A stretch of 64,000 bases of DNA from Phycisphaerae bacterium (GTDB lineage: Bacteria > Planctomycetota > Phycisphaerae > UBA1845 > Fen-1342): positions 1-64,000 of the forward strand of contig JAGNKU010000014.1 in the NCBI GenBank assembly GCA_017999985.1. The letters run 5' to 3'. Under the pieces are notes generated by a model. The model was not told the origin of the DNA. It searched no databases and was given only the letters and a program-made list of their open reading frames with translations. Shown here piece by piece: positions 51,330 through 55,070 of the stretch. A program made the translations under genes and the position numbers. Every line of letters begins with the position of its first letter. Within the stretch, counting starts at the first letter, position 1.

Positions 51330-52130
51330 TCACTTGGCCGACGAGCCGGCCACCGACGTGTCCGCCTCATCCTGCAACTGCCGGAGTGCCCGGCGCCGCA
51401 ACTGGGTCAACGGACGGGCCAGCGCGCGGTGCAGGCGGATCCAGATGCTCAGACGCTCGACAGCCTGGCGTTCGCCCGGCGTCAGCAGGTCGGGCCTGAG
51501 ACGGCGCTTGTGTTTCACGCAGTGGTAATAGTCGCCATGCTGAAATCGTGCCAGCAGCCAGCGGACCGGACGGCAGCGCCGCCAGCCCACCGGCGGCAGA
51601 TACAGTGAAATCTGGAAGTCGATGAGGTACGGCCGGCCGTCATCGCCGACGAGGATGTTCTGCCGCTTGTTCAGGTCCACGTAGGCGATGTGCCGCGCGT
51701 GCAGCGTACGCACGAGCGTGAACAGCTCGTCGAAGAACGTGTCGGACACGGCTTCGCGGCGGCCAAGTGGATGGCCGGGCACAAACGCGTGCATGAAGCC
51801 CGTTTCGCCCACGGGGCCGACCAGGGCGGGCACGCCAGCCAGATCCGCGGTGGCGCGATACAGTTGAATTTCCCGCCGGGCGAGGAATCTGCCCGCCCAA
51901 AGCAGGGACAGCCCGAAGCAGTCGGTCACGCGATTCATCTTCAGCACGGCGAGGCCGTGCGGTCCGCGATAGAGGCCCGTGGCGGCGAAGAAGTCGTGCT
52001 TGAACGTTTCCACGAGCGTGTAGTCCTGACCGGCACAGCGGGCGGTGGGCGGAAGCTGGCCGGTGGGCAGCGCGTACAGCCAAGGGTGACGCAGCCGGGG
52101 TTTGCGCATTGTCCGCGGGGGAGTGGTCAC
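51330..52130 (-). CDS. Atypical kinase, Kdo/LPS-kinase-like
   Basis: 266 residues, no membrane segment. It has a kinase-like core: GPHGLAVLKMNR with a candidate ATP-binding Lys, a helix with EIQLYR, the catalytic loop HARHIAYVDLNKRQNILVGD and the metal-binding DFQISLY where DFG is expected. The layout resembles WaaP/KdkA-type lipopolysaccharide kinases and RIO-like kinases. The substrate could be a lipid-A-core sugar or another small molecule. The start is GTG 52130 or ATG 52109, neither with a good ribosome site. A promoter and structured RNA lie 130-300 nt upstream. Confidence 0.75.
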   Translation of the reverse strand: MTTPPRTMRKPRLRHPWLYALPTGQLPPTARCAGQDYTLVETFKHDFFAATGLYRGPHGLAVLKMNRVTDCFGLSLLWAGRFLARREIQLYRATADLAGVPALVGPVGETGFMHAFVPGHPLGRREAVSDTFFDELFTLVRTLHARHIAYVDLNKRQNILVGDDGRPYLIDFQISLYLPPVGWRRCRPVRWLLARFQHGDYYHCVKHKRRLRPDLLTPGERQAVERLSIWIRLHRALARPLTQLRRRALRQLQDEADTSVAGSSAK

Positions 52131-52257: not shown

Positions 52258-52394
52258 GTCCAAATATAAGGCGTGCGGCACCCTGTGGGTATTGGCGCGG
52301 TCTAAGGGTGCCGCAGCGAGTGGAAGCAAGTTGTTAACCGGAAGGAACTTGTGTCGCCTTGACGGTTTCCCGTCTAGTCTGGCGGTTCCTCCGC
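52258..52394 (-). ncRNA. Candidate structured RNA or kinase leader
   Basis: On the minus strand four stem-loops follow each other directly: GCGG-AGGAA-CCGC (52394-52382), GACGG-GAAA-CCGTC with a GNRA loop (52374-52361), CAAGTT/AACTTG (52351-52327), and an 11-bp stem with core GCGGCACCCT/AGGGTGCCGC (52315-52274), then ATAT-rich sequence. A promoter ends about 7 nt before the first stem. It matches no RNA class I know, and I see no ORF. It may be a free RNA of about 137 nt or the 5' part of the kinase mRNA. The remaining spacer (52131-52257) shows nothing recognised. Confidence 0.5.
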
Positions 52395-52400
52395 ATCATT

Positions 52401-52428
52401 AGTATATCGCCGGCTGTGTGACTTTCAA
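52401..52428 (-). promoter_or_regulatory. Candidate sigma-70 promoter for the structured RNA/kinase
   Basis: On the minus strand TTGAAA (52428-52423), 16-nt spacer, TATACT (52406-52401), both five of six consensus bases. Confidence 0.6.
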
Positions 52429-52472: not shown

Positions 52473-55070
52473 TCACGGACGCGTCGGCACGTCCGATAGC
52501 TCGGTGCGCAGCTCCCGGGCGAGACCGCTCCAGCGGGATTCCGGGAACGCTGCCAGAAACTCATCCAGTCGCAGTCGCGCGTCAGCCCGCGCCGCCGCTC
52601 CGTAACCGCCGTAAAGCAGCAACGCCGCCTCGACGAGCGGGAGTTCATTCGGCAACTGCCTGCGGGAGTGCAACAAGCGCAACGCCGCGAGCGCGCGGTC
52701 GAACTCGCGTGCCTTGGGCACGGGCTCGCCGGCGGCCGAACGCTTGACCCACTCCACCGCGGTTGTCATATCCCCATCACGAAGGCTGACCAGCATGGAG
52801 GCGAGGCAGGCCAGCGGGTTCTGCGGGTCTGCTGACAGCAGGTCGCGCGCGGCTTCTGCAGTCATCGCGTCGCCGGCCAATGCCAGCGCCCAGACGAAAT
52901 AGGACCGGAACTCGCGGCGGTCGGGGGCGCGCTCGAGGGCGTCGCTCCACGCCGGCACGGCGTCCTGCGGGCGACCGGACTGCAGACAGACTTCGTGATA
53001 GCCGCGGAGCGCCGTGTAATTAGTTGGGTCGTCGCGAATCAGGGCGTCATAGACCTTGGTGGCCTGGTCCCAGTGATGGCTGCGCAGGTGATATTCGGCC
53101 AGGATCAGGCCGGCTTGGGCGTTCGTGGGATCTGCGTGAAGGACTTCGCTGATGAGCTGGTATCCGACTGCCCCCTCGCCGTAGCGGATCTGGCACAGGG
53201 CCATGCCCATCTTGGCCAGCGGTGGTGGATTGCCGGCCTCGAAGGCGCGGGCAAATTTCGCGCAGGCCTCCGAGTCGCGCTCGAGCGTGAACAGCAACAG
53301 CGCGCCGTAATCGGTGAAGTGCGCGCTGCGCAGGACTGGATCGTCCGGCAGGTGTGCTTCGCACCGCCGATAGGCGTCTTCGGCGTCCGTGTACTGGTCC
53401 AGCGCCTGGTATGCATGGGCAAGGTGTCGCCACGTGTCGAACGTGTCCGGCGCCAGTTGCCTGGCCAGTTCGGCCTGCGCCAATCCCTGGGCGGCAGCCC
53501 CGGCCCGGAGGAACGCCTCGGCAAGTCGGCCGTGGAGAGCGGCTCGGGCGCGGTCGTCGCTGAACTGCGCGGCGAGGTGCTCTGAATCGGCCAACGCGGC
53601 CAACGTCTCGCGTGTCAGGGCTCGGAAGTGCGCGGCTTGGCTTTGACCCTGCGGAATACGTGCCAGCTCATCCGCGGGCAGGGGGTGACTTTGTGCGGCT
53701 TCGTATGTGGCGGCCAGCGCTTCGAGGGCCCGCGGGTCGTTCGGGTGCGTATCCGCCAGGTGCCGCGCACGCCGGACGCTGCTGCGTGCCGTTGCACACC
53801 GAGGAATGTCCAGGAAGACGAACAGGCCCGCCAGCCCGACGACGATGAGATGCGTCACGGGCGACGCGCGCAGCAGGCCGCGGGGTGTCAGTGATGCGAG
53901 CCAAGACAGCAGTACCGCCCCGAGGACCAGCGCGCCCCCCATGAGCGGCAGGTACAGGTCACGGTCAGCGGGCGCGCTGCCGTGCCAGGCCGACAGCCCG
54001 ACCGCTGGCAGCAACGTGGCCCAGACCCATGCCCAGCCGAGCAACACAGGCCGCAGCGGCGGTCTGCGCCAGGCCAGAGTCGTGTGCACGGCACTGGCGA
54101 GCAGCAGCAGCAATCCGCCCCAGACACGCGGGTCGTTCCAGGTGACACCCGGATCGGGCAGCACGGCAAACGGCTGGTCGATGGGCAGGCAGCCCATCCG
54201 GAAGTACGCCCAGATCGCTACCGCGCCACGCGAAAAGGCGGCTGCGCCAAGGCCGGCCGCGTCGCCCTCGACGCTGCCCCACGTGCTTAGCTTCGCGAAG
54301 GCGACACACAGGGCGGTGATGATGTACAAGCGCGGTGTGACCAATGCGCGGCGCCATCCGTGCGTGGTCAGCTCCAGCACGATCGCGAGCAGAATCCAGC
54401 CGACGATGGGTTTCGAGAGCATCGCGAGCAGGAGCGCTGCGGTCGACACCGCGAAATAGAGCGAACGCCTTAGCTCAAGCGCGCGAACGTGCAGGCCGAG
54501 CGCAAGCAGTGCGAAGCCGCCGGAGAGCAGCCCCGCCCGCTCGAGATCGCCGGCCCAGGTGCCGACGAGTGCGGGGTGCAGGGCCCATAGCAGCGCCAAA
54601 CCCCACGTCAGCAGCGTGGCGGCAACGGCCGCGCTGCTGCCACGCCGCAGCAGGAGCGTCAGGACCCACCAGAGCAGCAGGGCATTCGCGGCGTGCAAGA
54701 GCAAGTCGGTCCGGCGAAAGCTGACGGGGTCGCCGCGGCTGAATTCCCACTCCACGGCGTACGTGAGCGGTGCGACGGGCGCGAACAGACCACGGGGAAC
54801 GCGCCGGCAGATCGAGGCGAGGCGGTCCGGGAGAGTGGTTCCCCCGCGTCCTGGGCCAGCGGCGTTGGGATTCACGTCCGGGTCACGCAGGACGCGCTGT
54901 ACGTGGGCGTCGCATTGCCAGGGATTGCCCAGGTGCGACAGGCCGGTCACGATGACCGCGACAACCAGGATCGCGCCGTGCAGCGCAATAACCCAGTGCG
55001 CAACGCCGCCGGTCCCGACAGCGGGCCCCAGCGATACGCCGGCCGGCGGTGGAGCCGGGTCAGAAGTCAT
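52473..55070 (-). CDS. Multi-pass membrane protein with TPR domain (TMTC-like)
   Basis: 865 residues. The N-terminal half has about ten transmembrane helices (VIALHGAILVVAVIVTGL, LLLHAANALLLWWVLTLLL, VTHLIVVGLAGLFVFLDI) with loop motifs LWALHPALVGTWAGDLERAGLLSG and ADRDLYLPLMG. These resemble the planctomycete and eukaryotic TMTC proteins, GT-C-fold O-mannosyltransferase-like, with TPRs. The C-terminal half carries TPR units (DTWRHLAHAYQALDQYTDAEDAYRR; AGLILAEYHLRSHHWDQATKVYDAL). It may glycosylate or assemble envelope proteins; this is inference from fold. No Shine-Dalgarno is evident at 55070. Confidence 0.8.
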   Translation of the reverse strand: MTSDPAPPPAGVSLGPAVGTGGVAHWVIALHGAILVVAVIVTGLSHLGNPWQCDAHVQRVLRDPDVNPNAAGPGRGGTTLPDRLASICRRVPRGLFAPVAPLTYAVEWEFSRGDPVSFRRTDLLLHAANALLLWWVLTLLLRRGSSAAVAATLLTWGLALLWALHPALVGTWAGDLERAGLLSGGFALLALGLHVRALELRRSLYFAVSTAALLLAMLSKPIVGWILLAIVLELTTHGWRRALVTPRLYIITALCVAFAKLSTWGSVEGDAAGLGAAAFSRGAVAIWAYFRMGCLPIDQPFAVLPDPGVTWNDPRVWGGLLLLLASAVHTTLAWRRPPLRPVLLGWAWVWATLLPAVGLSAWHGSAPADRDLYLPLMGGALVLGAVLLSWLASLTPRGLLRASPVTHLIVVGLAGLFVFLDIPRCATARSSVRRARHLADTHPNDPRALEALAATYEAAQSHPLPADELARIPQGQSQAAHFRALTRETLAALADSEHLAAQFSDDRARAALHGRLAEAFLRAGAAAQGLAQAELARQLAPDTFDTWRHLAHAYQALDQYTDAEDAYRRCEAHLPDDPVLRSAHFTDYGALLLFTLERDSEACAKFARAFEAGNPPPLAKMGMALCQIRYGEGAVGYQLISEVLHADPTNAQAGLILAEYHLRSHHWDQATKVYDALIRDDPTNYTALRGYHEVCLQSGRPQDAVPAWSDALERAPDRREFRSYFVWALALAGDAMTAEAARDLLSADPQNPLACLASMLVSLRDGDMTTAVEWVKRSAAGEPVPKAREFDRALAALRLLHSRRQLPNELPLVEAALLLYGGYGAAARADARLRLDEFLAAFPESRWSGLARELRTELSDVPTRP

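Follow-up and report, generated by a model that had tools for sequence, protein, structure and literature searches.

A conserved small RNA of a planctomycete order, probably a new base-pairing family, with complementarity to the mraZ-rsmH spacer

The RNA gene and its neighborhood

We analyzed a 64,000-nt stretch of the genome of a Phycisphaerae bacterium (contig JAGNKU010000014.1; here, the window). Between a gene for a TPR protein (52473-55070) and a gene for a kinase-like protein (51330-52130), and on the same strand as both, lies the gene of an apparently non-coding RNA of about 133 nt (Table 1). The preliminary description of this region reported a near-consensus promoter, TTGAAA-N16-TATACT, which we confirmed on the minus strand at positions 52428-52423 and 52406-52401. 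A promoter scan of the region gave one promoter-like site, compared with a mean of 0.2 in shuffled sequences. The pattern TTGnnn-N16-TATACT is invariant in the window's family, whereas the promoter is weaker or unresolved in the other families of the order. At the other end of the gene is a U-rich tail, absent from the preliminary description. The tail is weak in the window (CTTATATTT) compared with the CTTTTTT of most relatives, and a scan for consensus terminators missed the site because the loop is about 20 nt long. The predicted length of the RNA is 128 to 137 nt in 26 family loci.

Table 1. Features of the RNA gene in the window (positions in the 64,000-nt stretch)
Feature	Position	Strand	Basis or remark
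-35 element TTGAAA	52423..52428	-	TTGnnn in 27/27 family loci
-10 element TATACT	52401..52406	-	TATACT and 16-nt spacer in 27/27 family loci
sRNA gene, ~133 nt	52262..52394	-	5' end inferred from promoter, 3' end from U-rich tail
5' domain, sequence-variable, usually a structured hairpin	52333..52394	-	Family alignment and folding
Seed CUUCCACUCGCUGCGGC, nearly invariant, complementary to mraZ-rsmH spacer	52310..52326	-	Conservation and target scans
Terminator hairpin, 5' arm GCUGCGGCACCCU	52305..52317	-	Forms a 13-bp helix containing one bulge
Terminator loop with invariant GACCGCGCCAA	52285..52304	-	Conservation in homologues
Terminator hairpin, 3' arm AGGGUGCCGCA-C-GC	52271..52284	-	Conservation, helix
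U-rich tail, CUUAUAUUU in the window and CUUUUUU in the majority of relatives	52262..52270	-	Alignment

The kinase-like protein matches Pfam Pkinase weakly (17.6 bits) and partly resembles NCBIfam PRK09188/PRK12274. Its gene starts 132 nt downstream of the RNA on the same strand, and a kinase gene is found within about 1.5 kb in 21/27 family loci. It is tempting to see the RNA as a cis-acting leader or attenuator of this gene, one of the two readings first offered, but a cis-regulatory leader is expected to be followed by the same gene, on its own strand, from locus to locus, and this is not what the loci contain. A terminator stands between the RNA and the kinase; in six family loci the stretch fetched, a short contig end in two cases, contains no kinase; in one locus the kinase is reversed, and in five it is about 700-800 nt away. 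Outside the family, a kinase is near the RNA in 1/79 loci, at a contig end and in the opposite orientation. Kinase and TPR genes are the usual neighbors in the family; in other families different genes flank the RNA, in either orientation. The kinase association is accidental to one family, and the changing neighborhood largely refutes the leader reading, to which we give next to no weight. Since the neighbors differ between families and the RNA has its own terminator, we regard it as an autonomous RNA gene. The other initial reading, a stable small RNA, has gained from the conserved promoter and terminator, the autonomous location, the conservation across the order, and compensatory changes.

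A variable 5' domain and a near-invariant 3' module

A BLAST search with the region found the RNA in 27/27 genomes of the family, with best E values from 5e-86 (the window's own genome) to 3e-17. The family alignment shows three zones: the invariant promoter, a variable 5' domain of about 60 nt, and a nearly unchanging 3' module, CUUCCACUCGCUGCGGCACCCU-nn-GACCGCGCCAA-n-AGGGUGCCGCACGCCUUUUUU. Searched with a covariance model of this module, 101/114 genomes of the order, whose members are uncultured planctomycetes, gave a match, as did 63/65 of those of good quality, nearly always once per genome; the filters were strict, so a genome with no match may still have the RNA. Across 397 genomes sampled from the class there were 87 matches, all within the order and none outside it. 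The module is highly constrained, with 49/87 columns at least 95% identical among 90 homologues. An exact-pattern scan of 84,980 species returned 92 stretches, and the 80 listed are nearly all labeled Phycisphaerae or Planctomycetota.

Contigs of three metagenome-assembled genomes, labeled Alphaproteobacteria, Chloroflexi, and Phycisphaera mikurensis (L200, L206, and L198, respectively), carry this order-specific RNA, and for this reason we think that their labels are probably wrong. The RNA could thus serve as a marker for checking taxonomic labels. A diverged second copy is found in a few genomes (L141, L140, and L143, in G030, G077, and G063).

The 139-nt RNA has a predicted folding energy of -47.7 kcal/mol (z -3.0), matched by 1/200 dinucleotide shuffles. 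Four consecutive stems were originally proposed, and the sequence does contain all four (GCGG/CCGC, GACGG-GAAA-CCGTC, AAGTT/AACTT, and TGCGGCACCCT/AGGGTGCCGCA). However, the last hairpin alone, the terminator, is conserved, and we rejected the four stems as a single structural unit. In the minimum-energy fold, stems 1 and 3 are unused as drawn, and a single long hairpin (CGGAGGAAC..GTTCCTTCCG), which encloses the GAAA stem, makes up the 5' part. Among the 27 family members, the first ~60 nt vary freely in sequence and are mostly structured (median z -2.56; 21/27 below -1). Since the 5' domains of the family fold in differing ways, conservation does not extend to the first three stems.

The terminator helix, 13 bp with one bulge, is paired in 99.9% of cells across 89 distinct homologues. 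Relatives lacking compensatory changes were to count against the structure; such changes are present, if modestly, with double-sided changes at 2 pairs in 5 cells, which 0/500 shuffles reach. They convert A-U to G-C in four homologues and C-G to U-A in one. This is the stricter count, which omits two doubtful homologues (L146 and L147) together with L144 and L145, and so falls from 5 pairs and 9 cells. Covariation is thin because the stem is nearly invariant; in fact, 7/13 pairs never vary. The seed spans the edge of this structure, with its 5' half single-stranded (mean unpaired probability of CUUCCACUC, 0.58-0.78) and its 3' half forming the base of the terminator stem.

Complementarity to the mraZ-rsmH spacer

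When the family genomes were searched with the RNA by BLAST, secondary matches fell repeatedly on the seed, several of them in a single rsmH leader. In several genomes these matches share one position, just upstream of rsmH (mraW) and downstream of mraZ, on the sense strand (MraZ and MraW identified by Pfam). In the window's genome, the sequence GCCGCAGCGAGUGGAAGC pairs with the seed in a perfect 18-bp duplex (region G000:C7:28368-28388).

We found rsmH in 111/114 genomes of the order and examined 69 rsmH loci, from 25/26 family genomes (G025 was left out, as its start region is unreadable) and 44/85 genomes of other families, of which 40 were hand-picked for quality and spread. Eight loci with no upstream mraZ at E 1e-6 were left out, giving 61 spacers. 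A site matching the seed complement at 13/15 or more positions is present in 24/61 mraZ-rsmH regions, 9/25 in the family and 15/36 in other families. One of the loci left out (G076) also has a 13/15 site. Sixty permuted 15-mers matched at most 0 regions in the family and 1 in the other families, and the antisense strand of the 61 regions has no seed site. When 15-nt windows were slid along the whole RNA, a single peak appeared on the seed (25/61), with at most 1 elsewhere. In other orders of the same class, which gave no match to the RNA, 0/30 regions upstream of rsmH (23 with mraZ) have the site, the best being 12/15; the difference from 24/61 is significant by Fisher's test (p 2e-5) with genomes treated as independent despite shared phylogeny. 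The complementarity is specific, strand-biased, and order-restricted.

Among ten aligned family leaders, no other 16-nt window is as well conserved as the site itself (0.91, compared with a mean of 0.56). The seed-site duplex has a predicted energy of -39 to -47 kcal/mol in 9/25 family genomes, a value reached by 0/100 shuffles in each. Words of 11 nt up to CUCGCUGCGGC are enriched in the spacers, so that the complementarity extends into the base of the terminator stem. Within the long (320-784 nt), structured spacers, the site lies at different places: about 200-253 nt after the mraZ stop in the family, 117-185 nt after it in f6, and mostly about 25-61 nt after it in f7, where three sites are within the last codons of mraZ. 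In a family other than f7, about 120 nt separate the site from the conserved start region of rsmH downstream of it. Altogether, these patterns suggest that the mraZ-rsmH message is a likely target of the RNA.

Other candidate sites

Many spacers have no good site (37/61, including 16/25 in the window's family), and the seed is identical in nearly all genomes. Family f8 retains the RNA. Among six of its genomes that we examined, no mraZ was detected beside rsmH at E 1e-6 and no site was present; the arrangement is lost or moved in these six. Therefore, further targets must exist. They do not appear to form a large exact-match regulon, since the 11-nt seed complement is only slightly overrepresented genome-wide, with 181 occurrences (27 of them RNA genes) compared with 131 of the reversed word. 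Apart from the RNA gene, the window's genome has 12 copies of the exact 11-mer, one in the rsmH leader and 11 in other places; these 11 are mostly inside long reading frames, as are eight sites in G022 and one in G006. We saw no change in the seed matched by a change in the target, and most of the target site in the window's genome is paired when the fold of its spacer is predicted.

Three f8 genomes have a perfect 15-mer complement of the seed in a ribonucleotide reductase-like frame (L413, L420, and L421), possibly a coding coincidence. Four family genomes with no spacer site (G023, G026, G019, and G008; L298, L286, L300, and L299) have a 13-14/15 seed complement at a shared position within the rsmH codons, near +262. 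Since codon use could account for both sets, we did not include either among the targets. In G024, a word one base off the target site, CGCAGCGAGCGGAAG, is present in about 75 copies and seems to be a dispersed repeat with no relation to the RNA.

The terminator loop may also take part in pairing. Its invariant GACCGCGCCAA has complements in 11/61 spacers, against background means of 0.17 (family; maximum 2) and 0.33 (other families; maximum 6), which is suggestive of a second pairing, and there is no consistent geometry between these sites and those of the seed. We noticed by eye a GUGGGUA hairpin loop in 8/10 aligned family leaders, which could pair with the loop UACCCAC of the RNA.

What kind of RNA is it?

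The RNA was said at first to match no known class, and this holds for Rfam 15: none of its 4227 families matched the 64 kb at the gathering score, and the best match of a relaxed scan was a viral element (E 5.2) far under its own gathering score. Like 6S RNA (RF00013), it is a widely conserved, promoter-driven small RNA, but it is shorter and the window has no RF00013 match; with a separate 6S-like RNA elsewhere in the genome, we rejected this class. The 6S-like RNA (G000:C11:51061-51242) scores 44.7 bits, just under the gathering score of 46.4, and RNAs of this type are found in 20/27 family genomes, five of them above the cutoff. CsrA is present in the window's genome, and CsrB/RsmZ-type sponges of CsrA are also small non-coding RNAs. 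However, a sponge of this type needs repeated conserved GGA hairpins, and by inspection the conserved 3' module does not have any GGA motif. Family spacers (e.g., L278, G000:C7) hold several hairpins with GGAUG/GGAAG motifs, which we take to resemble CsrA sites. Base-pairing sRNAs encoded in trans often act with the help of Hfq or ProQ. A canonical Hfq was not detected in the window's genome, where one match reached 15.2 bits (cutoff, 27) inside a 729-aa frame.

Several features of the RNA are those of a trans-encoded sRNA. It has its own promoter in 27/27 family loci and a 3' intrinsic terminator in 90 homologues; its gene lies on a different contig from the putative target (C14 and C7, respectively) and is independent of its neighbors; and its conserved seed is half accessible and complementary to 24/61 spacers. 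From this comparison of genomes, we judge with reasonable confidence that the RNA represents a new family of a known kind, the trans-acting base-pairing sRNAs, not in Rfam.

A model for the RNA and the alternatives

We think it probable that the RNA is a trans-encoded regulator whose seed pairs with the mraZ-rsmH spacer in the message of the division and cell wall (dcw) cluster. From the sequence patterns, we infer transcription, pairing in the cell, and a regulatory outcome. A sigma-70-type promoter would give a transcript of ~130 nt with a variable 5' hairpin and a near-invariant 3' module that combines seed and intrinsic terminator, and the seed would pair with 11-18 nt on the sense strand of the spacer between mraZ and rsmH (mraW). 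The site does not coincide with a ribosome-binding site. Its distance from the rsmH start, which shifts between families, argues against a simple block of ribosome binding, and the site positions fit spacer processing better than a blocked rsmH ribosome-binding site. The most likely outcome is altered processing or stability of the long, structured spacer, which would lead to unequal expression of mraZ and of rsmH and the downstream genes. Since the pairing reaches the lower terminator stem, binding may also open that stem.

There is a precedent in Rhodobacter sphaeroides, where, according to the cited portions of two studies, the sRNA StsR binds UpsM and the dcw 5' leader (PMC5089854; PMC8307010), and its pairing opens the target for RNase E, promotes cleavage, and alters expression of the dcw division genes (PMC8307010). 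As far as those portions go, StsR is a trans-acting sRNA with a binding site in an untranslated part of a dcw message, as we propose for the planctomycete RNA. The two differ in that StsR/UpsM is alphaproteobacterial and Hfq-bound, whereas the planctomycete RNA is from another phylum with canonical Hfq not detected, and in that the StsR site is in the 5' leader of mraZ, whereas the planctomycete site falls at the stop codon of mraZ or beyond it. We regard the planctomycete RNA as a possible analogue; no sequence relation is claimed, and no Rfam family matched.

The roles could also be reversed, with the spacer, or an RNA processed from it, acting as a sponge that controls the sRNA, whose main targets would be elsewhere. 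The length and structure of the spacers (320-784 nt) fit this idea, as does a seed constraint stronger than one target in 24/61 genomes would demand, and UpsM of Rhodobacter is, in the portions cited above, an abundant dcw-leader RNA bound by StsR. On the other hand, no terminator or separate promoter has been shown for a spacer RNA, and no other conserved target set was found. We give the sponge a small but real chance, well below that of regulation of the dcw message by the sRNA.

Two further alternatives are improbable, in our view about equally so. In the first, the shared word would be the DNA- or RNA-binding site of one protein, maintained at both loci by selection, and the RNAs would never pair. 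MraZ, a DNA-binding regulator, is one candidate for such a protein, and the f7 site is close to mraZ. But the site is always on the sense strand (24 to 0), the word in the RNA gene lies inside the transcript, about 70 nt past the -10 element, and the complementarity runs through the base of the terminator stem. In the second, this would be a housekeeping RNA whose conserved 3' module attaches to a protein or to the ribosome, with an incidental match to the spacer. That would suit an RNA that is near-universal and mostly single copy, with a terminator stem whose sequence is nearly invariant yet unneeded for target pairing. It is countered by the peak in the scan, the strand bias, the permutation control, and the restriction to the order.

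A stronger form of the regulatory model can be drawn, which we put forward as a tentative idea that may well prove wrong. The RNA would be a dedicated, order-defining riboregulator of the dcw cluster, with seed and terminator fused into a single near-invariant module, so that pairing with the target would extend to the lower end of the terminator stem. It would split the expression of mraZ and rsmH from within the spacer between them, without canonical Hfq; where the spacer site is lost, the seed would have moved to other sites, for instance inside rsmH.

Significance for planctomycete biology

Our search of the open-access full-text literature on planctomycete sRNAs, and on mraZ/mraW together with small RNA, found no report of this RNA. 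In the cited part of one survey, 8 sRNA families are listed for the Planctomycetes-Verrucomicrobia-Chlamydiae group, compared with 345 for the Proteobacteria (PMC9029176). The RNA described here is probably a new family of a known kind whose likely target was unexpected. That target belongs to a reduced gene cluster: according to the cited sections of another study, Planctomycetota divide without FtsZ, and no more than three dcw genes, mraW among them, are retained across the whole Planctomycetes-Verrucomicrobia-Chlamydiae superphylum (PMC12283558). The planctomycete RNA would parallel the StsR/UpsM case, as reported in the portions cited, in another phylum. A near-universal RNA of the order that is complementary to the mraZ-rsmH region offers a testable handle on how the reduced dcw cluster is controlled.
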